Assembly: GCF_001457455.1 (NCBI RefSeq)
Contig: NZ_LN831026.1
Span: 1-64,000, forward strand
Direction of reading: 5' to 3'
Length of the DNA stretch: 64,000 bases
Origin: Corynebacterium diphtheriae
Lineage (GTDB): Bacteria; Actinomycetota; Actinomycetes; Mycobacteriales; Mycobacteriaceae
The stretch's first letter is position 1. Each line of letters opens with the position of its first letter. The position numbers were made by a program, and so were the translations under genes. Shown piece after piece: positions 1,660-43,481 of this stretch. The notes under the pieces were generated by a model, which had not been told where the DNA came from, did not search any database, and saw only the letters and a program-made list of their open reading frames with translations.

Positions 1660-1687
1660 TTAGGCTATTTTCGCAGCTCAGAACGTT

Positions 1688-1738
1688 AAGAGGCTGTAGG
1701 TGGTCCCTGTGGGGATACAACACCTACAGCCTCTTTTT
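1688..1738 (+). terminator. Rho-independent terminator of dnaA
   Basis: A perfect 15-bp inverted repeat (1688-1702 with 1721-1735) has an 18-base loop and runs into a T tract (1734-1738), 28 bases after the dnaA stop. It insulates the origin region from dnaA transcription. Confidence 0.93.
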
Positions 1739-1740
1739 AT

Positions 1741-2297
1741 GAGCAACACGCTGGGATAAGAAAATATCCCACAAAACTATCCACAGGTGTGTAATTACGG
1801 GATTGTAATTCAATGATCTCTATCACTTTTTACGGAACATTTGCGCCCACAGACCCCTGTGTATAACCCCATCTAAGATGTGTAAAAATTAGCCCTGAAC
1901 TGGGGAAGGATTGTGAAAGGAATACGGCTTGGAAAAGTTATCCACAACCGCCTATAGTTATCCACAGAGATTCCACAACCGGACTCACAACTCGAAAAAT
2001 GGCCGCCACCACGAGCGATACCCTGTCTTCCACAGATTCCACAGGACTTACTGTAGTTACCAACTATTTAGTCCAAATAAACCTAGGGAGAAATAGGGGT
2101 TGGGGAATTACACGAATTGCTCGGCCTCGCGAGCGAAGCGAGCGATCTTGTAATTACAAAAATCTGGCGAATACGAGTTTTCGTTCTTGGCGTTCACAGG
2201 TACGGTTAGTTTTTGTAATTTCAAGAAGTATTCCGATCCGCAGGCTCCTCCTCATGGCAGCGCCTACGTGATCGATCACATCGAGGAGCCCTCAAGC
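1741..2297. other. dnaA-dnaN intergenic region, putative oriC
   Basis: This non-coding stretch of over 550 bases sits where actinobacterial oriC usually lies. Perfect DnaA boxes TTATCCACA are at 1938-1946 and 1958-1966. Near-matches are CTATCCACA at 1777-1785 and, on the other strand, TGTGTATAA at 1858-1866. Several shorter TCCACA motifs lie around 1971-2045. The stretch is AT-richer than the flanking genes and also carries the dnaN promoter. Only two perfect 9-mers are visible, fewer than in the cluster at about 28 kb. Confidence 0.8.
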
Positions 2298-11795: not shown

Positions 11796-11872
11796 GGGCC
11801 TATAGCTCAGTCGGTTAGAGCGCATCGCTGATAACGATGAGGTCGCAAGTTCGATTCTTGCTAGGCCCACCA
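11796..11872 (+). tRNA. tRNA-Ile (GAT)
   Basis: A 77-base cloverleaf with acceptor stem GGGCCTA/TAGGCCC, anticodon GAT in loop CTGATAA, T-loop GTTCGATTC and encoded CCA. It is followed after 9 bases by tRNA-Ala, the pair usual in rRNA operons, but no rRNA is present here. Confidence 0.95.
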
Positions 11873-11881
11873 GGAACGAAT

Positions 11882-11954
11882 GGGGCATTAGCTCAATTGG
11901 TAGAGCATCTGCTTTGCAAGCAGAAGGTCAGGAGTTCGATTCTCCTATGCTCCA
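11882..11954 (+). tRNA. tRNA-Ala (TGC)
   Basis: A 73-base cloverleaf without encoded CCA, with acceptor GGGGCAT/ATGCTCC, anticodon TGC in CTTTGCAAG and a GTTCGATTC T-loop. Identical copies occur at 19109 and 20163. Confidence 0.95.
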
Positions 11955-19022: not shown

Positions 19023-19099
19023 GGGCCTATAGCTCAGTCGGTTAGAGCGCATCGCTGATAACGATGAGGTCGCAAGTTCGATTCTTGCTAGGCCCACCA
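19023..19099 (+). tRNA. tRNA-Ile (GAT), copy 2
   Basis: Identical in sequence to the tRNA at 11796-11872, with encoded CCA and anticodon GAT. Confidence 0.95.
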
Positions 19100-19108
19100 G
19101 GAACGAAT

Positions 19109-19181
19109 GGGGCATTAGCTCAATTGGTAGAGCATCTGCTTTGCAAGCAGAAGGTCAGGAGTTCGATTCTCCTATGCTCCA
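19109..19181 (+). tRNA. tRNA-Ala (TGC), copy 2
   Basis: Identical to the tRNA at 11882-11954, with no encoded CCA. It is followed by the hairpin GACCCAGCC/GGCTGGGTT with a T tract (about 19189-19219). Confidence 0.95.
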
Positions 19182-20162: not shown

Positions 20163-20235
20163 GGGGCATTAGCTCAATTGGTAGAGCATCTGCTTTGCAA
20201 GCAGAAGGTCAGGAGTTCGATTCTCCTATGCTCCA
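20163..20235 (+). tRNA. tRNA-Ala (TGC), copy 3
   Basis: Identical to the other two tRNA-Ala genes but without a preceding tRNA-Ile. A TATAGT -10-like motif lies upstream. It is followed by the same CCCAGCC/GGCTGGG terminator hairpin with a long T run. Confidence 0.95.
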
Positions 20236-27131: not shown

Positions 27132-27731
27132 ATGAACGCACTCAAACGCGCATATGGTCAAGCACCTGCGACCGCGGTTCTTTGCGCGCTGACGATACTT
27201 ATCTATCTGCTTACTGTTGTGGAGTCCCGCTCGATTGAACACAACCTTAGTGATTCGTGGATTGCAGATCACTGGACTCTTTATGGTCCGTATTCTCATG
27301 GCCTAGGGTGGCTGCGCATGGTGGGGACGGTGTTTCTCCACAGCGGGCCCACACATCTGGCGTTGAACATGTTTATGCTGTTCTTCTTTGGTCGCGAGAT
27401 TGAGCATTATTTAGGCAGTGGTCGTTTTACTTTGGCTTATATTGTGAGCGGGATTGGGGCCTCGGCAACTGTTCTGCTGATGGATCCGCTTGCGCCTACG
27501 GTGGGTGCTTCTGGTGCTGTGTATGGGCTTATGGCGATTTTTGTGGCGATGTCGTACCGGTTGCGTAGGGATCTCACAGCACCGTTGATTCTTATCGCAG
27601 TGAATGTGGGCTATTCCTTGCTTATGGATGGTGTTTCCCTTTGGGGACATTTGGGTGGCTTGCTGACGGGTTGTGTGCTGGGGATTGTTTTGGTGATTGC
27701 GCAGACTACTCGAGGTGGTAAGCGGGGGTGA
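27132..27731 (+). CDS. Rhomboid-family intramembrane serine protease
   Basis: A 199-residue protein with six membrane helices. The catalytic Ser lies in VGASGAVYGL (helix 4), the His in WGHLGGLLTG (helix 6) and the supporting Asn in HLALNMFMLFFFG (helix 2). It cleaves membrane-spanning substrates within the bilayer. The ATG at 27132 (MNALKRAYGQAPATAV) was chosen; the frame is open to 27051. A terminator follows. Rhomboid after ppiA is the corynebacterial order, here interrupted by IS remnants. Confidence 0.9.
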   Translation: MNALKRAYGQAPATAVLCALTILIYLLTVVESRSIEHNLSDSWIADHWTLYGPYSHGLGWLRMVGTVFLHSGPTHLALNMFMLFFFGREIEHYLGSGRFTLAYIVSGIGASATVLLMDPLAPTVGASGAVYGLMAIFVAMSYRLRRDLTAPLILIAVNVGYSLLMDGVSLWGHLGGLLTGCVLGIVLVIAQTTRGGKRG

Positions 27732-27969: not shown

Positions 27970-28311
27970 TTATCCCCAGATTTTTGTAATTATCCACCAA
28001 AATTTCACAACTTTTGGAGTGCGAACACAGCGCTGATCGTGTGAAAAAGATTCCACAGCAGTTATCCACAATGTGGATAATTACATGTGTGTTGTTCACA
28101 GGGTGATGATCGAATAGCTATGTGTTCGAAGTACGCGACCTGCTATTTTCCCACAAGATTTCGAACAAATCCGCAGGTGGGGAAGAAGTGCACAACTTTA
28201 TCCACAGGGTGTGGATAAAGTCTGGGGATAACTTCCACCCGTGTAATTCCACAATTTCTTCCACAGCCTGTGGATAACTTTTGGTGATAGATGTTCACAA
28301 GTGGTGGATAA
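27970..28311. other. Dense DnaA-box cluster (second, away from dnaA)
   Basis: Five perfect 9-mers TTATCCACA or its complement lie at 28062-28070, 28072-28080, 28198-28206, 28210-28218 and 28269-28277. Single-mismatch boxes lie at 27970-27978, 27990-27998, 28223-28231 and 28303-28311. Two pairs face each other with 1- and 3-base gaps. The segment lies in a 1.07-kb non-coding gap between the rhomboid terminator and the thiC riboswitch. It holds more perfect boxes than the dnaA-dnaN gap. It could be a DnaA-titration site (datA-like), a DnaA-regulated locus or part of a bipartite origin. Confidence 0.8.
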
Positions 28312-28696
28312 CTTGTGAGTAAACCTCATATCTGGTGGTTCTGACCTAAAAGAGGAGCGCTGTGTCGTGCACGCTAGGCATAAGAGTGCGGGTCAATGCC
28401 GGGGACTTGTTTGGCTTGAGGTGACCATTTGTGCAGATAGATAGCTACTTTTGTGCAAGAAGTGGCTACGGGGTGATAAAACCCATCCACCATGCCGGTA
28501 ACTGAGAAAAATTAAGTTTTTTGTGTGGTGGTGGGGAGCGTTTTAGGTACCGCGTGATTGAGGGGCTAGGTGGTGGCGTAATACCCCCTAGGCGCTTTAC
28601 TAAAACCGCATGTCGCCTCGCGCTTTAAAAGTGTTGCTACCCCCATTGGAGTGGGGTGTGGCGGCACAATGTTGGGTGCGTGTTCTAGGTTAGTGA

Positions 28697-31254
<2,558 letters not shown>

Positions 31255-31258
<4 letters not shown>

Positions 31259-32326
31259 AAATAGCTGTTGTAGGTGGTGGAATCGTAGGGCTAAGCACCG
31301 CCTTTGAGCTTAGTACCCGCGGGTATAACGTTCACGTATTTGACCCCAACCCGGCAAGCGGTGCCTCACACTTTGCCGGCGGAATGCTTGCCCCCGCCGC
31401 CGAAGTGCAGTTCCAACAAGACCCATTGTTTCCGTTGATGAAGCGCGCCGGTAAGCTGTGGCCAGACATGGTGCGTTGGGTAGCGCAGCACACCAACCTG
31501 CCTACCGGTTATCGCACCGAAGGCACCCTCGTTGTGGCAGCCGATCGTGCCGACGCGGAACACCTTAAACAATTGCGCGCAACCCAAGAGGCGGCCGGAA
31601 TGGATGTTCGCCCCATTACCACACGACAGGCCCGTGGCCTCGAACCGGCACTAGGACCTCGGCTATCGGCGGCCGTACACATCCCCAACGACACCCAAGT
31701 CGCACCACGCGTATTCCTCACCGCACTACTCGACGCACTCGATGACTGTGGAGTAGAGGTAACAAAAGAGAAAATCACCGACCTCGAACCCCTCTACCAA
31801 CAATTCGATGTTGTTGTCCTCGCAGCAGGCCTCGGCGCACAACACCTAAGCCCCATACCTCTAGCACTACGACCCGTGCGCGGCGACATCCTACGAGTAC
31901 AAACAGAACCAGGGGCAGTCAACATGGTTGTGCGCGGCTGGGTTAACGACCGCCCCATCTACATCATCCCGCGCGCAAACGGCGAAATCGCCATCGGTGC
32001 CACCAGCCGCGAAGACGAACGCGATTTGCCCAGTGTAGAAGGAATATACGACCTGCTCCGCGATGCCATACGCGTAGTACCGGGTATCGTCGATAGTTCC
32101 CTTATAGAAGCCAACGTTGGTGTACGCCCCGGCACACCCGACGACCTCCCATACCTCGGATGGGCATCAGACCGACTCATTATCTCCACCGGATACTTCC
32201 GCCACGGCATCTTGCTCTCATCACTCGGCGCCCATGTCACCGCATGCCTCATCGACGGCACCGACCCCGGCATCGACCTCACAGCATGCGCACCAGACCG
32301 ACACCACAACGAAAGGGGCACAACCC

Positions 32327-32343
<17 letters not shown>
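31255..32343 (+). CDS. thiO: Glycine oxidase ThiO
   Basis: An FAD enzyme that oxidises glycine to dehydroglycine, the thiazole precursor. 362 residues with the N-terminal dinucleotide motif VGGGIVGLSTAFEL. The C-terminal DAAO signature region reads GVRPGTPDDLPYLGW and TGYFRHGILLS. From about 31640 base usage switches to strongly C-rich codons, continuing through thiS, thiG and thiF. It overlaps thiE by 4 and thiS by 17 bases. Confidence 0.92.
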
Positions 32344-33313
<970 letters not shown>

Positions 33314-33314
<1 letters not shown>

Positions 33315-34324
33315 TGCTCGACGAGCTGGAACGCCAACGCGTAGCCCGCCAACTGCGGCTACCTGGTTTTGGGATTGAGCAGCAAGAACGGCTCAACAAA
33401 GGGCGAGTGCTGGTGATCGGTGCTGGGGGACTGGGCAGTCCTGCCTTGCAGTCCCTTGTGGCGGCTGGGGTGGGGTCGATCCGACTCGTGGATAACGACA
33501 CCGTGGATGTGTCCAACATTCAACGCCAGATCCTGTTTGGTGTTGGGGATGTAGGGCGCTCCAAAGTTCACGTCGCCGCCGAAAGATTGCGCGCAATTCA
33601 ACCCGGGATTCGTATCGACGCCCACACCGAACGCCTCACCGCACACAACGCACACGAACTCGCCGAAGGCTGCGACGTGATCCTCGACGGCTCCGACACC
33701 TTTGCTACCAAATTTCTCTGCGGCGACCTCGCCGAAATAACAGGCATACCGCTCGTCTGGGGCAGCGTACTGCAATTCGAAGGACACATGGGCGTATTCA
33801 CCCGCGAGGTAGGGCTACGGGACCTGTTCCCCGAAGCCCCCACCCAAGGACTCAACTGTGCCGACGCAGGTGTACTCGGCGCTACCACCGCAGTGATCGC
33901 CAACCTCATGGCCACCGAAACCATCAAAATCCTCGCCGGAATCGGAACAGTCCAACCAGGGTCCATCACCACCTACAATGCGTTGACCAGCACATTTCGC
34001 ACATACACTGTGGGGCGTGACCCCCTTCGACCTGCAGCCCGCACACTTCACACGTGGACGCTACCCAACGAATACGAACTTATCGACGTCCGCGAACCCC
34101 ACGAAATAGAACACACCCCCAGCGGCGCGCACATCACCCTGCCGCAATCCATGTGGGATGACACCACGGCGATCCAACATGCGCTCGACAACATCACCAC
34201 AGACAATGTGGTCGTCGTCTGTGCCTCTGGCATAAGAAGTGCCGCATTTATCGAACAATTCGCACATCTTAACCCACACCTCACCTTCCACAACGTCCCC
34301 AGCGGAATCAACGAACTCCCATGA
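33314..34324 (+). CDS. thiF: ThiF/MoeB-type adenylyltransferase with rhodanese domain
   Basis: Activates the ThiS C-terminus. 336 residues: an E1-like domain (VIGAGGLGSPALQSL, DNDTVDVSNIQRQ, catalytic Cys in GLNCADAGVLG), then a rhodanese domain from about residue 255 with sulfur-accepting Cys in VVVCASGIRSA. The usual zinc motif (CxxC before LFPE and CPxC after RDP) is absent: the sequence reads GLRDLFPEAP and GRDPLRPAAR. A GTG at 33311 is an alternative start. It overlaps thiD by 4 bases. Confidence 0.9.
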
Positions 34325-35175
34325 CCCCACACATACTCACCATCGCAGGATCCGACCCCTCCGGCGGGGCCGGAATCCAAGCAGACCTCAAATCCATCAT
34401 GGCAGCCGGCGGCTACGGCATGGCAGCAATCACCGCCCTGACCGCGCAAAACACCTGCGGAGTTACCGCAATACACACCCCACCCACGGAGTTCCTCAGC
34501 GAACAACTCCGCGCAATATCCGACGACATCACCATCCATGCCATCAAAATCGGCATGATCGGATCCTCTGATGCAGCCACCGCCACCGCCACATGGCTTG
34601 ACCAACTACCACACACACCCATCGTGGTTCTCGACCCCGTCATGGTAGCCACCTCCGGATCGGTACTTGGCCAACGTCATTATTTTGAACCCCTGCTCCA
34701 CCACGCCACCGTGATCACCCCCAACCTGCCAGAACTCGCAGTCCTAACAAACAACCACGACCCTGAACAAGCCGAACATGCCGCACGCAGCCTCGCAGAA
34801 CAATACGACTGTGCAGTGCTGCTCAAAGGTGGGCACCGACACGGAACCGACGACCTTGGCAACACCTGGATTACTGCCAGTGGCCCCCAATTCCACGCAC
34901 CCAGCCCCCGCATCCACACCACCAACACCCACGGCACCGGCTGCTCGCTCTCCTCAGCACTCGCCACCCGGCTTGCCATCGAACCCCCAGAACCCGCCCT
35001 CCACTGGGCTACCACCTGGCTCAACGGGGCAATCGCCCACGGCAGTGACCTCAACGTAGGCCACGGCAACGGGCCTGTCGACCACAGCTACCGGCTAGAG
35101 GAATACTCAGCTAACTGCAACACACACCCCAAGAATTCCCGCAGGGCCACTTTCAACATGGCACCCCAACTCTAA
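34321..35175 (+). CDS. thiD: HMP/HMP-phosphate kinase ThiD
   Basis: Phosphorylates HMP and HMP-P to HMP-PP. A ribokinase-fold protein of 284 residues with AGSDPSGGAGIQADLK, VVLDPVMVATSG and the anion-hole motif HGTGCSLSSALA. Family members usually end near HGPVHHFW; here GNGPVDHSY is followed by about 27 extra residues that run to within 30 bases of an ISL3-type element. The tail may therefore be read-through sequence rather than native. Last gene of the operon. Confidence 0.93.
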   Translation: MTPHILTIAGSDPSGGAGIQADLKSIMAAGGYGMAAITALTAQNTCGVTAIHTPPTEFLSEQLRAISDDITIHAIKIGMIGSSDAATATATWLDQLPHTPIVVLDPVMVATSGSVLGQRHYFEPLLHHATVITPNLPELAVLTNNHDPEQAEHAARSLAEQYDCAVLLKGGHRHGTDDLGNTWITASGPQFHAPSPRIHTTNTHGTGCSLSSALATRLAIEPPEPALHWATTWLNGAIAHGSDLNVGHGNGPVDHSYRLEEYSANCNTHPKNSRRATFNMAPQL

Positions 35176-35329
35176 AAATGGATCAACCACGTTCGGACAA
35201 TGGGGCTCTTCCGGTTTTAGAGTGCATTGATTAGTTCGCCGGGGGTTCGGGCGTGGCACAAGATATTGGGGGTTCTTGGCTTTGTAGGAATAAGGATGTC
35301 TAATCCATCCGTACAACCAAGGACCTACT

Positions 35330-35690
35330 GTGCAACCTAACGGAAATGTCATCGTCATCGAAGCCGAGCCCATCAATGAATACCTCACATGCGGGCAGCC
35401 TAAAGTATTGCGCGACCACGTCATCCACAGCCTGGTCGACCTACCCATCATCGACCACCCAACACGCATTTATGTGCGCCTTCCACGCTACCGGTGCACC
35501 AACAAGCGCTGCTTACAGAAGACCTTCCACACGGGCCTTGCCTGCGCACTCGACAATTCAAAAACCACTAACAGGGTGACCCACTGGATCCTGCAACGAC
35601 TTAGTCTTAGCCGCTGTTCGCGACGTGATCTGCAACGACAAGCACTACATCTTGTGGTGCCTGATCCACGTCGCCAACATCCGACACACA
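35330..35690 (+). pseudogene. ISL3 transposase N-terminal fragment
   Basis: The frame begins MQPNGNVIVIEAEPINEYL and contains VRLPRYRCTNKRC, which resembles the N-terminal zinc-finger region of ISL3 transposases. The DDE catalytic domain is missing, and the frame runs into the internal inverted-repeat copy at 35691. Confidence 0.7.
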
Positions 35691-35750
35691 ATCAATGCAC
35701 TCTAAAACCGGAAGAGCCGCTAAACGGGGGTATTTCGAAGGATTTTTCTT

Positions 35751-35799
35751 GGCACTTCACACCAAACCGGCCGTTTGGGCAGATTTGGTGTGAAGTGCC
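35751..35799. repeat. Perfect 16-bp hairpin inside the ISL3 remnant
   Basis: GGCACTTCACACCAAA (35751-35766) and TTTGGTGTGAAGTGCC (35784-35799) are separated by 17 bases and flanked by GGATTTTTCTT and GTCTTTTCGG. It resembles in design, not sequence, the 88-bp palindromic repeats at 53.9, 55.7 and 59.8 kb. Confidence 0.7.
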
Positions 35800-36152
35800 G
35801 TCTTTTCGGGGGTGAGCGGGGGTGCCGCGCCCACCAATCCCAGCCAAGTCATGGTTGTGAAAACGTCCCACTCCACACAGGGCCACGCCCGAACCCCCGG
35901 CGAACTAATCAATGCACTCTAAAACCGGAAGAGCCGACATTGGCCGCTAGTTAATATCCGCAACGTGCGACCAATACCGAGATCCCTCGCATGCAACTGC
36001 TCGGAATCAACACCAGGTAGGGGAGAAATAGTCGAGATAATGGAGTTCATATGAGGTGCAATTGTGCGCGTAGAAATACTCTTGGCGGAGCTACTGGGAT
36101 AACAGCGTTGTAATTAATAGGGTGAGTTAAGGGGGTGAAAATAGAAAATCTG

Positions 36153-36181
36153 TTGCCTAACTTTTGATAAGTCACTAACTT
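36153..36181 (+). promoter_or_regulatory. Candidate tracrRNA promoter
   Basis: TTGCCT (36153-36158) and TAACTT (36176-36181) are 17 bases apart and would start transcription near 36188, exactly before the anti-repeat. Confidence 0.5.
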
Positions 36182-36187
36182 AATTAA

Positions 36188-36276
36188 GTAGAACTGAACC
36201 TCAGTAAGCATTGGCTCGTTTCCAATGTTGATTGCTCCGCCGGTGCTCCTTATTTTTAAGGGCGCCGGCTTTTTGT
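36188..36276 (+). ncRNA. tracrRNA
   Basis: Bases 36190-36205 (AGAACTGAACCTCAGT) pair with the first 16 bases of the CRISPR repeat read on the minus strand; two differences form G-U pairs. Downstream are a small hairpin (ATTGGC..../CCAATG, about 36210-36228) and a GC-rich terminator hairpin (GCCGG..../CCGGC, about 36239-36269) ending in TTTTT. It lies directly before cas9 on the same strand. It guides crRNA maturation and Cas9 loading. The sequence matches my memory of the C. diphtheriae tracrRNA. Confidence 0.9.
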
Positions 36277-36291
36277 TAGAAAGGCGTAAGG

Positions 36292-39200
36292 GTGAAATAC
36301 CACGTAGGTATAGACGTCGGTACATTTTCCGTGGGACTAGCTGCCATCGAAGTAGATGACGCTGGAATGCCCATTAAGACGTTAAGCTTGGTATCGCATA
36401 TTCACGATTCGGGATTAGATCCTGACAAGATTAAATCTGCGGTGACGCGATTAGCATCATCAGGTATTGCGCGTAGAACACGGCGCCTCTACCGACGTAA
36501 GCGTCGTCGTTTGCAGCAGCTGGATAAGTTTATTCAGCGTCAAGGTTGGCCAGTAATTGAATTGGAAGATTATTCTGATCCGCTTTATCCATGGAAGGTT
36601 CGTGCAGAACTCGCGGCTAGCTATATAGCTGATGAGAAAGAGCGGGGAGAAAAACTGTCGGTAGCGTTGCGGCATATTGCGCGTCACCGAGGTTGGCGGA
36701 ATCCCTATGCAAAAGTTTCTTCGTTATATCTTCCCGATGAGCCTAGTGATGCTTTTAAAGCAATCCGAGAAGAAATAAAAAGAGCATCCGGCCAACCGGT
36801 GCCAGAAACCGCAACAGTAGGCCAGATGGTTACTCTATGCGAACTGGGTACTTTAAAACTTCGTGGTGAAGGTGGCGTGCTATCAGCACGACTGCAGCAG
36901 TCTGATCACGCTCGAGAGATCCAAGAAATCTGCCGGATGCAAGAAATTGGACAGGAACTATATCGCAAGATTATCGACGTAGTTTTTGCTGCTGAGTCCC
37001 CTAAAGGTTCTGCTTCTAGCCGAGTAGGAAAAGATCCTCTGCAACCTGGTAAAAATCGCGCACTTAAAGCTTCTGATGCCTTTCAGCGATACCGAATTGC
37101 AGCATTGATCGGCAATCTAAGGGTGCGGGTTGACGGTGAAAAACGAATCTTATCGGTGGAAGAGAAAAACCTTGTGTTCGATCACTTGGTCAATCTGGCA
37201 CCAAAGAAGGAACCAGAATGGGTGACGATTGCTGAGATTCTGGGAATTGATCGTGGGCAATTAATTGGTACCGCAACGATGACCGATGACGGAGAACGCG
37301 CAGGGGCACGTCCGCCTACACACGACACGAATCGCAGCATTGTGAACAGCAGAATCGCACCACTTGTAGATTGGTGGAAAACTGCGTCTGCCCTAGAACA
37401 ACATGCAATGGTAAAAGCACTCAGCAATGCTGAGGTAGATGACTTTGATTCCCCAGAAGGAGCAAAGGTCCAAGCCTTTTTCGCAGACCTTGACGATGAT
37501 GTTCACGCCAAACTAGATTCGCTTCATTTGCCTGTCGGTAGAGCTGCTTACAGCGAGGATACGCTTGTGCGGCTTACTCGACGTATGTTGGCTGACGGTG
37601 TGGATCTCTATACTGCAAGACTGCAAGAATTTGGTATTGAACCATCTTGGACGCCTCCGGCGCCTCGGATTGGGGAACCTGTAGGAAATCCTGCTGTCGA
37701 CCGTGTACTCAAAACTGTTTCTCGTTGGCTAGAATCCGCAACAAAGACATGGGGTGCTCCAGAGCGTGTGATTATTGAGCATGTCCGAGAAGGCTTTGTT
37801 ACTGAGAAACGGGCCCGCGAAATGGACGGTGACATGCGGCGACGTGCTGCACGAAACGCAAAGCTTTTTCAAGAAATGCAGGAAAAACTTAACGTTCAGG
37901 GAAAACCTAGTAGGGCTGACTTGTGGCGTTATCAGTCTGTTCAGCGCCAGAATTGTCAATGCGCTTATTGTGGTTCGCCTATTACCTTCTCAAACTCGGA
38001 AATGGATCATATCGTTCCACGAGCAGGGCAAGGATCAACAAACACGCGTGAGAATCTAGTGGCCGTTTGCCATAGATGTAATCAATCCAAAGGAAATACT
38101 CCTTTTGCAATATGGGCAAAAAACACTTCTATTGAGGGTGTAAGCGTTAAGGAAGCTGTAGAACGCACACGGCATTGGGTCACCGATACGGGGATGCGCA
38201 GCACTGACTTTAAGAAATTTACCAAGGCAGTGGTGGAACGCTTCCAGCGTGCCACTATGGATGAAGAAATCGATGCTCGGTCCATGGAATCTGTCGCATG
38301 GATGGCCAACGAGCTACGTTCTCGAGTTGCGCAACATTTTGCTTCTCACGGAACCACAGTCAGAGTTTATCGAGGATCTTTGACCGCAGAAGCGCGAAGA
38401 GCTTCAGGTATTTCAGGAAAACTTGAATTCCTTGACGGAGTCGGAAAATCACGTTTGGATCGCCGACATCATGCAATCGATGCTGCGGTGATTGCATTTA
38501 CCAGTGATTATGTGGCGGAAACTCTTGCTGTGCGATCAAATCTCAAACAGTCTCAAGCACATAGACAGGAGGCACCACAATGGCGTGAATTTACTGGGAA
38601 AGACGCTGAACATAGAGCTGCATGGCGAGTGTGGTGCCAGAAAATGGAGAAGCTATCAGCTCTGCTAACAGAAGATCTACGCGATGATCGCGTCGTTGTG
38701 ATGTCTAATGTGAGGCTTCGGCTAGGAAATGGCTCTGCACATGAAGAAACAATCGGAAAGCTCTCTAAAGTAAAGCTAGGTAGCCAATTATCTGTGTCCG
38801 ATATTGATAAGGCATCCAGTGAAGCCCTTTGGTGTGCTTTGACACGTGAACCAGATTTTGATCCCAAAGATGGGCTTCCAGCAAACCCAGAGCGCCATAT
38901 ACGGGTAAACGGAACACATGTGTATGCAGGAGATAACATTGGATTATTCCCTGTTTCGGCAGGCTCTATAGCTCTGCGAGGAGGCTATGCAGAATTGGGA
39001 AGTAGCTTCCACCATGCCAGGGTATATAAAATCACTTCAGGTAAAAAGCCAGCATTTGCAATGCTTAGGGTCTATACCATTGATTTATTGCCATATCGCA
39101 ATCAAGACCTGTTCTCGGTTGAACTAAAACCTCAGACCATGTCGATGCGACAGGCAGAAAAGAAACTTCGAGATGCACTTGCTACCGGTAACGCCGAATA

Positions 39201-39546
39201 TCTCGGTTGGCTAGTCGTAGACGATGAACTTGTTGTTGATACCTCGAAGATCGCAACAGACCAAGTAAAAGCTGTAGAAGCTGAGCTCGGAACTATTCGT
39301 AGATGGCGGGTAGATGGGTTCTTTGGGGATACGAGGCTTAGACTACGACCACTTCAAATGAGTAAAGAAGGGATCAAAAAAGAGTCGGCTCCTGAGCTAT
39401 CAAAGATTATTGATAGACCTGGATGGCTTCCGGCTGTGAATAAGCTGTTCTCTGAAGGAAATGTCACTGTAGTGCGGCGTGATTCGTTAGGGCGTGTTCG
39501 TCTTGAAAGCACTGCGCACCTCCCCGTGACTTGGAAGGTGCAGTAG
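36292..39546 (+). CDS. cas9: CRISPR-associated endonuclease Cas9, type II-C
   Basis: RNA-guided DNA endonuclease of 1084 residues, the compact II-C size. RuvC-I is HVGIDVGTFSVGLA (Asp8). The Arg-rich bridge helix reads RRTRRLYRRKRRRLQ. RuvC-II is RVIIEHVRE (Glu496). The HNH has CAYCG, Asp572-His573 in EMDHIVPRAG and CHRCNQSKGN, with two CxxC zinc pairs. RuvC-III is DRRHHAIDAAV (His727, Asp730). All catalytic residues are present, so it should be active. GTG start with an AGAAAGG site, 16 bases after the tracrRNA terminator. Confidence 0.97.
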   Translation: MKYHVGIDVGTFSVGLAAIEVDDAGMPIKTLSLVSHIHDSGLDPDKIKSAVTRLASSGIARRTRRLYRRKRRRLQQLDKFIQRQGWPVIELEDYSDPLYPWKVRAELAASYIADEKERGEKLSVALRHIARHRGWRNPYAKVSSLYLPDEPSDAFKAIREEIKRASGQPVPETATVGQMVTLCELGTLKLRGEGGVLSARLQQSDHAREIQEICRMQEIGQELYRKIIDVVFAAESPKGSASSRVGKDPLQPGKNRALKASDAFQRYRIAALIGNLRVRVDGEKRILSVEEKNLVFDHLVNLAPKKEPEWVTIAEILGIDRGQLIGTATMTDDGERAGARPPTHDTNRSIVNSRIAPLVDWWKTASALEQHAMVKALSNAEVDDFDSPEGAKVQAFFADLDDDVHAKLDSLHLPVGRAAYSEDTLVRLTRRMLADGVDLYTARLQEFGIEPSWTPPAPRIGEPVGNPAVDRVLKTVSRWLESATKTWGAPERVIIEHVREGFVTEKRAREMDGDMRRRAARNAKLFQEMQEKLNVQGKPSRADLWRYQSVQRQNCQCAYCGSPITFSNSEMDHIVPRAGQGSTNTRENLVAVCHRCNQSKGNTPFAIWAKNTSIEGVSVKEAVERTRHWVTDTGMRSTDFKKFTKAVVERFQRATMDEEIDARSMESVAWMANELRSRVAQHFASHGTTVRVYRGSLTAEARRASGISGKLEFLDGVGKSRLDRRHHAIDAAVIAFTSDYVAETLAVRSNLKQSQAHRQEAPQWREFTGKDAEHRAAWRVWCQKMEKLSALLTEDLRDDRVVVMSNVRLRLGNGSAHEETIGKLSKVKLGSQLSVSDIDKASSEALWCALTREPDFDPKDGLPANPERHIRVNGTHVYAGDNIGLFPVSAGSIALRGGYAELGSSFHHARVYKITSGKKPAFAMLRVYTIDLLPYRNQDLFSVELKPQTMSMRQAEKKLRDALATGNAEYLGWLVVDDELVVDTSKIATDQVKAVEAELGTIRRWRVDGFFGDTRLRLRPLQMSKEGIKKESAPELSKIIDRPGWLPAVNKLFSEGNVTVVRRDSLGRVRLESTAHLPVTWKVQ

Positions 39547-39549
39547 ACA

Positions 39550-40464
39550 ATGAATCCTGGATGGCGAGTTGTGGATCTGATCGATTTTGATGGCAAAGTC
39601 TCATATCAGCGTGGACAGCTCGCCATCACATCAGATTCTGGTGAATTACGTGCAACGTTGCCGTTGGCGCAGATCGCTGTTGTGCTTATCGGCAATAAGA
39701 TAATTATTAGCGGTGCAGTTTTGGTCAAACTTTCTGAGTATGACATTGCTGTATTGGTATGCGATTGGCGCAGGGTTCCTGTCGCAGGGTCTTTTTCATG
39801 GAACGAACATACGCGTATTGCGGCACGGCAACGTGCTCAAGCGAGTTTATCGCTTCCGCGACAAAAATCCGCTTGGGCTCAAATTATTAAGGCGAAAATA
39901 TTAGGCCAAGCACGGACTGCTGCCCAGTTAGGTTTTGATGCTACCGATTTAAAGAACTTGGCTAGGGCGGTTCGTTCTGGGGACGTGGATAACCGTGAAG
40001 CTATGGCTGCTAAGAGATACTGGGAAATTATCTCAACTGAAGATGATTTCCGAAGATTACCTGGGCTTGCTGCTACGGGGTGGAACGGGGCTTTGGATTA
40101 TGCGTATACAGTCTTGCGTGGACATGGTATGCGTGCGATTTGTTCTGCTGGTCTAGTGGGGACGTTGGGCGTTTTTCATCATGGCCGAGGTAATCAGTTT
40201 GCTCTGGTGGATGATCTAATTGAGCCTTTCCGTCCGGCTATTGATTACGCGGTTTTTTCAATTGTGTCTAATGCACAAGAGCTGGATAAGGAAACTAAAC
40301 GCCAGCTTGTGGCTGCTGTGGAAGAGCCTTTCAATTCTGCGGGGCAGTCAATTCCGACGGTTTTTACCGCGTTCGCTCAACAGTATGGGCGGTATGTGGA
40401 AGGTGATGTTGAGAAATTAGTACCGCCTATTTGGGAAGGTCCCTTCGATGCCGAAGAAAGGTAG
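39550..40464 (+). CDS. cas1: Cas1 integrase, type II
   Basis: Integrase that inserts new spacers with Cas2. 304 residues starting MNPGWRVVDLIDFDGKVSYQ. Metal ligands lie in the C-terminal helical domain (HHGRGNQFALVDDLIEPFRP with His and Asp; the Glu lies upstream). It starts 3 bases after cas9 and overlaps cas2 by 17 bases. Confidence 0.94.
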   Translation: MNPGWRVVDLIDFDGKVSYQRGQLAITSDSGELRATLPLAQIAVVLIGNKIIISGAVLVKLSEYDIAVLVCDWRRVPVAGSFSWNEHTRIAARQRAQASLSLPRQKSAWAQIIKAKILGQARTAAQLGFDATDLKNLARAVRSGDVDNREAMAAKRYWEIISTEDDFRRLPGLAATGWNGALDYAYTVLRGHGMRAICSAGLVGTLGVFHHGRGNQFALVDDLIEPFRPAIDYAVFSIVSNAQELDKETKRQLVAAVEEPFNSAGQSIPTVFTAFAQQYGRYVEGDVEKLVPPIWEGPFDAEER

Positions 40465-40777
40465 CGATCCGGTGTGGTGTGTGGTGATGTTTGATCTTCC
40501 GGTGAAGACAAAGACTCAGCGAAAGCAAGCAACGGCGTTTCGTCAGAATCTTTTAGATCTTGGATTCTGTATGGCACAGCTGAGTGTATATGTGCAGTAC
40601 CTGCCTCTGGCCGCAAAGTTATCTAATTTGGTGAAATTAATTAAAGAAAAATTACCCCCAGGTGGGGATGTTCGAATCCTTTCGGTATCGGACATCCAAT
40701 GGTCGAAGATGATCCGTTTTTCTTCTTCTGCAGAGGTTTCTGGCGAAGAAAAGCCTGATCAACTCGCGATTTTTTAG
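40448..40777 (+). CDS. cas2: Cas2, type II
   Basis: A 109-residue ferredoxin-fold partner of Cas1 starting MPKKGSDPVWCVVMFDLPV, with the conserved Asp in VMFDLPV. There is no cas4 or csn2, which together with the small Cas9 defines subtype II-C. Its stop overlaps the hairpin preceding the array. Confidence 0.93.
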   Translation: MPKKGSDPVWCVVMFDLPVKTKTQRKQATAFRQNLLDLGFCMAQLSVYVQYLPLAAKLSNLVKLIKEKLPPGGDVRILSVSDIQWSKMIRFSSSAEVSGEEKPDQLAIF

Positions 40778-40834
40778 ACTTCAGGTAGCCCAAAAAACCA
40801 TGTTAAACAGGATTTTTTGGGCTACCTGAAGTCT
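40776..40834. repeat. Perfect 22-bp inverted repeat joining cas2 end to the first CRISPR repeat
   Basis: 40776-40797 is exactly complementary to 40813-40834 around a 15-base loop. The right arm includes the first 7 bases of the first repeat (GAAGTCT). The left arm overlaps the cas2 stop. It could end both cas2 and minus-strand array transcripts, although no T run follows the stem. Confidence 0.85.
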
Positions 40835-41310
40835 ATCAGGGTTTTTGAGAACTGAACCCCAGCATGATACGCGGGCTGATGCGCGGCATGCGAAGTCTAT
40901 CAGGGTTTTTGAGAACTGAACCCCAGCCTGCCTGGTATAGGTCAGCGGCGAATCGGAAGTCTATCAGGGTTTTTGAGAACTGAACCCCAGCTTATTAGCT
41001 CATGGAACGCATCGAACTCGAAGTCTATCAGGGTTTTTGAGAACTGAACCCCAGCCCCCGCACCGTGGGGCGCTGGGGAGGTCGAAGTCTATCAGGGTTT
41101 TTGAGAACTGAACCCCAGCGGTGGCGTTAACTGGGGTGACTGCTCCGGAAGTCTATCAGGGTTTTTGAGAACTGAACCCCAGCTGCGCTATATCAGCCCA
41201 CCACGGCTGAGGAAGTCTATCAGGGTTTTTGAGAACTGAACCCCAGCCCGCACCAGCGGGGATGAACCGTAGGAGAAGTTTATCAGGGTTTTTGGGAATG
41301 AGGGTGCCTG
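40828..41310 (-). CRISPR. Type II-C CRISPR array, 8 repeats and 7 spacers
   Basis: 36-base repeats (plus strand GAAGTCTATCAGGG.... to ....CCCCAGC) start at 40828, 40892, 40956, 41020, 41084, 41148, 41212 and 41275. Spacers are 28 bases, the last 27. The tracrRNA anti-repeat shows that functional crRNA is read on the minus strand. The eighth repeat (41275-41310) is degenerate in its second half (GGGAATGAGGGTGCC). The repeats carry the II-C style sequence. Spacer targets cannot be told without a search. Confidence 0.97.
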
Positions 41311-41356
41311 ATGGTTTGTGTTTGGGATTCTATTCCGCATAAGGAGATAAGTCAGA

Positions 41357-42569
41357 ATGACTACTGTGGTAAGACGAGACTCGGCTGATAAGGCCAAGAT
41401 TGACGCGACCTGAGGAAAAGCTGCTTGCTCATGCTGAAATCGCGAAGCTAAAGCTGCTGCTGGGATCTACAATTATCGCAACGGCACCTACCTAAAGACT
41501 GTTGATCCCAACGACGGGCCAGTTACCGTAGACGTCCCCAAGGATAGAGCTGGGACGTATATTCCCACCATGGTCCCGAAAGGCTCGAGGCGTTTAACGG
41601 ATGTCGATGACATGATCGTGAGCTTGTATGCCAGTGGGATGACCGTGCGCGATATCAGGCACCACATGGCCACTGTTATGCGGGTGGACATCTCCCATGA
41701 GACGATTTCCGCGGTCACTGACGCAGTACTTGATGAAGTAATGGTGTGGTAAAAACCGTCAGTTAGAAGAGTTCTACCCCGTGATCTTCCTCGACACGCT
41801 GTGTATCAAAGTCCGTGATGGCGGCCGCGTAGTCAACAAGAGTGCCTATATGGCCATCGGCGTGGACATCGAAGGAATCAAGCACATCCTAGGACTATGG
41901 ATCGCCAAAGAAAAAGGCGCGTCCTTTTGGGTGCAGGTATGCTCCAACCTGTCCAACCGTGGGGTCAAAGACGTCTTCATTGTCTGCTGTGACGGGCTCA
42001 AGGGCCTTCCTGAAGCAGGAGAGGTAACCTGGCCAGGTCCGATGGTGCAAACCTGTGTGGTGCACCTTATTCGTGCTGCTAACCGGTGGGGAGCTTACGG
42101 GGATCGCAAAGGCGTATCCGCAGCGTTGGAGAAGGTTTATACTACCCTTGATGAGGCCGGTGCGGTGGCGGCACTGGCAGAATTCGCGGATTCTGAGTTT
42201 GGAGAGAAATACCCCAGGTCTGCCAAGGTCTGGTGTGACGCGTGGGAACGGTTTGTGCCGTTTTGTAGTTTCCGCCGGCAGCCCGCAATGTTATCTACAT
42301 CACGAATTCGATTGAGTCGTTTAACAATGAGCTGCGTAAATCTACCTGCAACCGCGTCCAATTTTACTAACGATGAGTCGGCGTTGAAGGCGTTGTGGTT
42401 GATGATCTGCAATATCGAAGATAAACGTTTAGCTAAGCGCGCCAAGGAAGGCTGGCGAGTTGCCGCCTCAGCCGGCCGCTTTGTCGAAGGCGGGAAAGTC
42501 TCCGGATGGAAACAAGCCATCAACCAAATGGCTGTCGCTTACTCGGACCGCTTCGACCAATACCTCTAG
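41357..42569 (+). pseudogene. IS256-family transposase pseudogene
   Basis: Begins MTTVVRRDSADKAK after AAGGAG, then an in-frame TGA near 41411. It continues VPKGSRRLTDVDDMIVSLYA, VIFLDTLCIKVRDGG (first Asp), CCDGLKGLPEA (second Asp), and, in another frame, TNSIESFNNELRKSTCNR (Glu). Stop and frameshift points lie near 41411, 41751, 42270 and 42365. The order of motifs is that of IS256/Mutator transposases. It abuts the degenerate end of the CRISPR array. Confidence 0.82.
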
Positions 42570-42698
42570 AAATCAAGCCCCACACACAAACAACTTGACA
42601 CCCTCTCTCGGAATCGTTGTAAATACAAACTTGCTAAGTATCAATGGTGACATCTCGGTATTTGAGTATGGTTGTTCATAATGTTCCTACAAAATAAA

Positions 42699-42882
42699 TG
42701 GCACCGAGTCGAAAAAAATAAGCGCATAGCAGGGGGTCTGCGCTAGAGTAGCTGAAACATACGAAATATCCGCTGATACTGTCAGGATCATTTACGTAAT
42801 CGTTGGAATCTGTGGACTGTCTATGATTGCTGTCTACTTAATACAGATGGTTCATCTACCCAAAGTAATAAACAACAGCTAA
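42699..42882 (+). pseudogene. PspC-domain protein remnant
   Basis: Two frames together give EKNKRIAGGLR and RVAETYEISADTVRIIYVIV, then GLSMIAVYLIQMVHLPKV. This is the pattern of a PspC stress-response membrane domain (KRIAGG, then AEYFGI-type helix, then a membrane span ending in LP). A frameshift near 42750 and the lack of a proper start indicate decay. Confidence 0.5.
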
Positions 42883-43144
42883 AGATGCGTCAAACTATTT
42901 TCCCAACTTAGCGTTTGCACTTACTACGCTGCCCGTCTCCAAACAACCCATGCTCAACACTGTGTTGACGCGTGGGGTTCACCATGTCCTCCAAGGTGAA
43001 AACATCCTCAAAGAACGGACTTTTACTCGCCGTCGCCGTGCTTGAGGTCAATGGCGATTATGCATAGGGCTTGTTTGTTCCGCTGTGATGTTATGGACAA
43101 TCTACGCGCGGAAGACAAGAGGTGTGTTTACGTAGTGCATAAGA
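42883..43144. other. Non-coding stretch before crgA terminator
   Basis: Contains only a short open frame ending in Arg-rich codons (about 42960-43045) with no recognisable family. No RNA or repeat seen. Confidence 0.3.
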
Positions 43145-43190
43145 AAAACGACTGACGATGTCTCTAACTAAGGGTGATGTCAGTCGTTTT
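43145..43190. terminator. Terminator downstream of crgA
   Basis: AAAACGACTGAC (43145-43156) pairs with GTCAGTCGTTTT (43179-43190). The A and T ends make it usable from both sides; crgA (minus) ends at 43212. Confidence 0.85.
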
Positions 43191-43211
43191 GTTATTGAGA
43201 CTAAGAAGCGC

Positions 43212-43481
43212 CTAACGCCATCCCATGGTCATAAGCAGGCCGATGATGAAGAGTCCGAAGCCGATGCCATAGTTCCATGGTCCGAGTTCGGTCATGAAGG
43301 AGATGTCTTGGCCTGCTAGGTAGTTAACGATCAGCCAGAGTAGTCCGGCGAGGATGAGGCCGAACATGATGATTTTGTACCACAGCGGGGTGCCCGTGGA
43401 GTTGATTTTCACTGGGGTGCGGTTTGCGGTGGAACCAGCGGTGTAAGCGGTGGAGCTGTGGTTGATCTTTGACTTTGGCAT
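43212..43481 (-). CDS. crgA: Cell division protein CrgA
   Basis: An 89-residue protein with a Ser/Thr-rich cytoplasmic N-terminus, two membrane helices (about 35-55 and 70-87) and the family end [16 protein letters not shown]. It bridges FtsZ and wall-synthesis proteins at the septum of actinobacteria. It lies beside the pknB block as in M. tuberculosis. Confidence 0.92.

Follow-up and report, generated by a model that had tools for sequence, protein, structure and literature searches.

A conserved, origin-linked DnaA-box cluster in Corynebacterium diphtheriae as a putative DnaA control site

The window analyzed here is the stretch of 64,000 nucleotides that begins the Corynebacterium diphtheriae contig NZ_LN831026.1. 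About 1,000 intergenic bases in it separate a rhomboid-family membrane protease gene (27135..27731, plus strand; Pfam PF01694, E 2.8e-30), the conserved left neighbor, from thiC (Pfam match, E 3.1e-191). DnaA boxes are clustered at 27970–28311, at a distance of about 28,000 bases from the dnaA start, and the remainder of the interval consists of the 3′ side of the rhomboid gene, with a terminator-like hairpin recognized by eye, and a TPP riboswitch before thiC (28696..28806, plus strand; Rfam RF00059, 58.5 bits). A preceding sequence-only reading had the cluster fill a 1-kb gene-free gap; it does lie inside that gap but covers only 342 of the bases. Farther to the right, the stretch 28744–43214 with thiC and a cas9 gene (Pfam) separates the cluster from crgA (43214..43481, minus strand; Pfam PF06781, E 6.7e-34), and an open reading frame near the cas9 region (41781–42569) is transposase-like by eye.

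Rescanning 27970–28311 recovered all nine DnaA boxes that had been reported, five of them perfect and four with one mismatch. The perfect boxes, TTATCCACA, start at 28062 and 28198 on the plus strand and at 28072, 28210 and 28269 on the minus strand, whereas the one-mismatch boxes lie at 27970..27978 (plus, TTATCCCCA), 27990..27998 (plus, TTATCCACC), 28223 (minus) and 28303..28311 (minus, TTATCCACC). The two head-to-head pairs were likewise found as described, with a gap of 1 base between 28062 and 28072 and of 3 bases between 28198 and 28210. In total, the window holds 36 boxes with at most one mismatch, compared with a mean of 11.0 in 100 shuffled versions (sd 3.0, maximum 20). The genome is a single contig of 2,463,666 bases that starts with dnaA (base 1). 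It contains 48 perfect boxes, and the genome-wide count proposed in the sequence-only reading revealed no second group as dense as the five in the cluster. The runners-up hold three each, one upstream of dnaA (2463263–2463381) and one upstream of dnaB (2360142–2360317), and when 48 boxes were placed at random in 20,000 draws, the maximum within 342 bp was three, reached 15 times.

That the cluster is denser than the replication origin, as had been claimed, holds for perfect boxes and for the comparison with the dnaA-dnaN gap (1660..2267), the usual position of oriC, which indeed contains only two perfect boxes (1777 and 1858) together with two one-mismatch boxes (1938 and 1958). It does not hold once imperfect boxes and both flanks of dnaA are included in the count, as the total in the cluster is similar to that of the region upstream of dnaA. 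The latter carries eight boxes in 277 bp (2463247–2463523; three perfect and five one-mismatch), an array that perhaps serves dnaA autoregulation or represents the other half of the origin.

Alignment of related loci resolved the cluster into an ordered core of about 50 bp followed by further modules. The core comprises two direct boxes 12–13 bp apart, an inverted box 1–3 nt further on and an 18-bp palindrome, and its consensus from 41 aligned cores reads GTTATCCACAgg-n-GTTATCCACA-n-TG(t/g)GGAT-AATnACA-N4-TGTAATT. In the window, the first direct box (28049..28057, plus strand) has three mismatches, although most aligned relatives have a better one; the head-to-head pair TTATCCACA-A-TGTGGATAA, identified by both scan and alignment, forms a 19-bp palindrome at 28062..28080, and the adjoining palindrome AATTACA-N4-TGTAATT (28079..28096) has two mismatches in this genome. 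The 41 sequences, 23 from Corynebacterium and 18 from elsewhere, were built into a core model, R1, which also matches the second module on the minus strand (28198..28231, 20.7 bits). This module repeats the three-box order of the core in inverted orientation (28198 plus, 28210 minus, 28223 minus) and is followed by a second, weaker copy of the palindrome (28231..28248, two mismatches). The third module, retained in the genus alignment, consists of a half box TTCCACA and the perfect minus-strand box 28269–28277 (28259..28277 in all).

The succession of core, second module and third module is common to the Corynebacterium clusters in the genus alignment. The spacing between the core and the next box on the plus strand was measurable in 44 of the 66 loci and fell into three tight classes about 11.4 bp apart, namely 124–127 (7 loci), 135–139 (27 loci) and 147–149 (7 loci), with 100, 100 and 114 in the remaining three. 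A period of 10.5 gave a phase agreement of 0.69, which rose to 0.84 at 12, the upper limit of the periods tested; the genomes were taken regardless of their relatedness, and helical phasing of the modules is at most a suggestion.

Conservation of the gap across Corynebacterium, which the sequence-only reading had named as a check on its proposal, is strongly borne out. A rhomboid homolog is present in 182 of the 201 genomes of the genus. Among 66 unique loci (the best 30 rhomboid matches plus 36 hand-picked ones, mostly from complete genomes, after four repeats were dropped) a cluster lies downstream of the rhomboid gene in 63. In 62 of the 66, four to 11 boxes with at most one mismatch fall within 342 bp and within 1,300 bases of the rhomboid gene, and in locus L094 six boxes lie beyond that distance. 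The stretch upstream of the rhomboid gene, used as a control in 30 of the 66 loci, never had more than two boxes per 342 bp. No cluster was found downstream of the rhomboid gene in three of the 66 loci (L048, L087 and L096); the genome of the first of these (G173) has a core 27 kb from its rhomboid gene. The head-to-head core, allowing two mismatches in all, was present in 54 of the 66 loci and not found in the other 12. At E<=1e-6, R1 detected the core in 147 of the 201 genomes of the genus and gave no match in the other 54. An element was also located at 213–270 on the minus strand of a Candidatus Corynebacterium faecipullorum record (L232).

The core extends well beyond the genus. In other genera of the family, 21 of the best 26 loci had a core better than any in their own upstream control. 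A scan of named genomes with the core pattern returned at least 119 stretches, and the 80 titled loci among the matches listed all belong to what we take to be actinobacteria. The rhomboid gene accompanies the core in 69 of these 80 listed loci; of the other 11, the upstream sequence is shorter than 700 bases in eight and at least that long in three (L239, L251 and L267). In an alignment of 102 rows from 100 sources, the first direct box is 84–100% conserved per position among lettered rows; 80 of the sources came from the pattern scan, in which the pattern fixed the core parts and excluded this box. At E<=1e-5, R1 found the core in 59 of the 121 genomes sampled from the order, which represent 23 of 50 genera, and in 78 of the 197 sampled from the class, which represent 32 of 91 genera. 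At the same threshold, a second model, R2, reached 39 of the 296 genomes sampled from the phylum, in 31 of 199 genera; 23 of the 39 lie outside the class, and the other 257 genomes had no match at this strict cut-off. The genus, order, class and phylum samples overlap and include genomes from which the models were made, the model E-values are rough, and with the strict cut-offs and the stricter filters of the many-genome searches the misses include weak copies.

Outside the genus, the core mostly adjoins the rhomboid gene or crgA. In loci read from other genera, crgA abuts the element and the gap is short, whereas in C. diphtheriae it lies 15 kb farther, past thiC and cas9. In Nostocoides, the element lies in an 83-bp gap on which the rhomboid gene and crgA (the latter assigned by eye) converge. 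The most compact arrangement was found in three genomes of 1.2–1.5 Mb of one family (f40), in which the rhomboid-crgA gaps of 63, 46 and 63 bp contain essentially the element alone; four loci of this family were read, of which the fourth (L369) has no resolved crgA, and the gene identities are from Pfam for L362 and L363. Gaps of 46–63 bp are too short to accommodate either a promoter or a typical origin, and no promoter geometry was seen in the tight gaps read. An element of about 50 bp stands beside the same genes in genomes ranging from 1.2 Mb to many Mb. Seven of ten loci fetched from outside the class lie by crgA, trpG or pknB, and for crgA two of these matches are weak ones (E near 1e-3). 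Of the remaining loci, one is upstream of a dnaA-like gene (by eye), and two have no assigned neighbor.

In addition to its neighbors, the element is linked to dnaA. Excluding C. diphtheriae itself, the element and dnaA are on one contig in 45 of the 59 order genomes with an R1 match, and in 34 of these 45 the element lies downstream of dnaA within 60 kb, at 12 to 49 kb with a median of 24 kb, and on the same strand as dnaA in 29 of the 34. The 11 genomes outside this range comprise two with an upstream element and nine with the element farther away. This nearness may be carried along, at least partly, by conserved gene order.

A further connection to the origin is provided by the palindrome, which occurs with at most one mismatch in 14 of 21 genomes searched. 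The dnaA-dnaN gap of C. diphtheriae contains a copy with one mismatch at 1793..1810, which together with its adjacent box gives a weak R1 match (12.7 bits). Of 25 Corynebacterium genomes, 23 (all but G150 and G200) have the palindrome in this gap, with 12 or 13 of 14 letters matching as compared with shuffle means of 8.1–9.5, and by eye it adjoins a CCACA box sequence. R1 also recovered the composite from the gap in several genomes, among them G012, G010 and G006 (E 6e-6 to 1.2e-5) and G163 (E 2.6e-9). In four of 13 Corynebacterium genomes (G004, G005, G011 and G012), the only two copies of the palindrome are that of the cluster and that of the presumed oriC, the position of dnaA having been checked in G012 and deduced from R1 matches in the other three; extra copies occur elsewhere in the genome in, for example, G001, G006, G008 and G009. 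The presumed oriC of Corynebacterium is like the cluster in having DnaA boxes and the same palindrome, but differs in its box arrangement and its larger extent. Outside Corynebacterium, none of 20 order genomes had a palindrome after dnaA that beat the best of 50 shuffles.

Among known non-origin sites, the closest in layout are the DnaA-reactivating sequences (DARS) of Escherichia coli, which promote the release of ADP from DnaA, as opposed to datA, a DnaA-inactivating site that promotes DnaA-ATP hydrolysis with IHF. Boxes at 0 (plus), 14 (minus) and 26 (minus) are found in the bioD-uvrB gap, which from its map position we take to be DARS1, and in the rppH-ygdT gap, taken as DARS2 because its box spacing is identical. 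Read in reverse, both give direct, 12, direct, 14, inverted, the same order as in the actinobacterial core, with a direct spacing of 12 as against 12–13 in the core, although three boxes have only four orientation classes and the likeness is thus possibly due to chance. DARS1, DARS2 and the cluster are all intergenic and non-origin, and the three-box arrangement of DARS is present in the core consensus, with the first direct box of C. diphtheriae carrying its three mismatches. The core differs in its head-to-head gap (1–3 nt, as compared with 5 nt in DARS1 and DARS2), in its added palindrome and in its closeness to dnaA. The region presumed from its map position to contain datA (L372) is like the cluster in being a non-origin site with several boxes, at 2178, 2245 and 2407 (plus) and 2419 (minus) with at most one mismatch, but it has no compact three-box core, and its box arrangement is not that of the actinobacterial core. 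Kinship at the sequence level was considered and rejected, since R2 had no match at E<=10 in the DARS1, DARS2 or datA regions (L370, L371 and L372). Streptomyces also has a DnaA-box cluster outside oriC, a likeness to our cluster within the actinobacteria; R2 found no match in eight listed large genomes (7.1–9.9 Mb; family f33, genus g93) that are perhaps Streptomyces.

Taken together, these results point, at a probability of roughly 55%, to a dedicated DnaA control site that is linked to the origin without being one, and on which an ordered complex would alter the supply of active DnaA. Such a site probably helps to control when copying of the chromosome starts. DnaA would fill the two direct boxes of the core, 12–13 bp apart, and then the inverted box, while the palindrome would probably bind a second protein, one also used at oriC in Corynebacterium. 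The complex could then change the supply of active DnaA through exchange or hydrolysis of the bound nucleotide, in a DARS-like or a datA-like manner. As the site usually lies 12–49 kb from dnaA, each initiation would soon be followed by its replication. The ancestral core seems to have grown in Corynebacterium to about 300 bp, with the further modules at set distances. The activating, DARS-like direction is slightly favored over inactivation by the box order, and on this match of layout the element may work like a control site of the DARS/datA class, though we do not file it as a DARS. The datA-like titration site suggested in the sequence-only reading fits best in the wide sense of a non-origin DnaA control site, but not in the box arrangement of E. 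coli datA.

The main rival explanation, which we regard as unlikely yet serious, is passive titration, in which the boxes simply soak up DnaA, their early replication buffers initiation, and box order and palindrome are incidental. Titration by box clusters has been proposed for other bacteria, and the box numbers, with seven or more per 342 bp in most Corynebacterium loci read, fit such a role as well as the closeness to dnaA does; however, the core found across the phylum has only about three boxes, in a fixed order and spacing and with an added palindrome, none of which pure titration needs. A mark for chromosome organization, by which DnaA or the palindrome-binding protein might anchor, segregate or count the origin region in a manner tied to crgA, appears quite improbable to us. 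The linkage to crgA, trpG or pknB outside the class would suit it, as would the free orientation relative to the rhomboid gene (at least 12 listed genus genomes have the core on the opposite strand), but the linkage is possibly no more than inherited gene order.

An auxiliary or split origin, in which the cluster either loops to oriC and helps to open it or acts as an origin in its own right, is improbable, and the bipartite origin offered in the sequence-only reading is accordingly not favored. Of the features of a replication origin, the cluster has its group of DnaA boxes and, in Corynebacterium, the box-palindrome composite shared with the dnaA-dnaN gap; across 45 Corynebacterium loci the mean GC content is moreover 0.39 at the core and 0.42–0.51 up to about +240, compared with about 0.58 around, that is, 7–19 points below the locus. 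With this GC drop, it is conceivable that the enlarged cluster of Corynebacterium takes part in unwinding. Yet the core can be confined to 46–63 bp in the three small genomes, with no space beside it for an AT-rich unwinding region, which argues against an origin, and each flank of dnaA, the dnaA-dnaN gap as well as the upstream region, has boxes of its own; GC skew, computed for three genomes, is too noisy at this resolution to place the origin. The transcriptional control of thiC or another neighbor, also raised in that reading, is highly improbable. The cluster does lie upstream of thiC in C. diphtheriae, but thiC has its own TPP riboswitch, the largest open reading frame after the cluster is on the minus strand in 23 and on the plus strand in 22 of 45 Corynebacterium loci (by a mechanical call), and convergent gene ends flank the core in four loci of other genera, so that a fixed position upstream of one gene was not found across the loci read. 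The idea of a thiC control region was rejected on these observations.

The preferred reading, a non-origin DnaA control site, can be taken further, to an ancient origin-linked site of the Actinomycetota at which DnaA switches its nucleotide, with a DARS-like layout and a dedicated partner that binds AATnACA-N4-TGTAATT both here and at the Corynebacterium oriC; this extension we hold as tentative and rather doubtful. If it were true, a nucleotide-switch site would be a main regulator of initiation in the Actinomycetota. To our knowledge, members of this phylum are without Hda, SeqA and Dam, and how actinobacteria limit the activity of DnaA is an open question. The element is a small and precise target, and work on it might uncover a new DnaA control site together with its protein partner.

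Several other features were observed in the C. diphtheriae genome. The interval between rplI and dnaB (2360142–2360317; L399) carries three perfect and three one-mismatch boxes, which include a direct-11-direct-14-inverted triad with almost the spacing of the E. coli DARS. Six pairs of perfect boxes, 36–51 bp apart, lie at 228948/228999, 869358/869399, 1428426/1428474, 1532264/1532300, 1794114/1794155 and 1830975/1831013; several of them sit within the longer word AGTTATCCACAGA, one is upstream of an ssb-like gene, and the six possibly represent a DnaA regulon. In addition, a tRNA gene pair occurs twice with equal scores, at 11796–11954 and, about 7 kb away, at 19023–19181, and a third copy of one member is found at 20163–20235.
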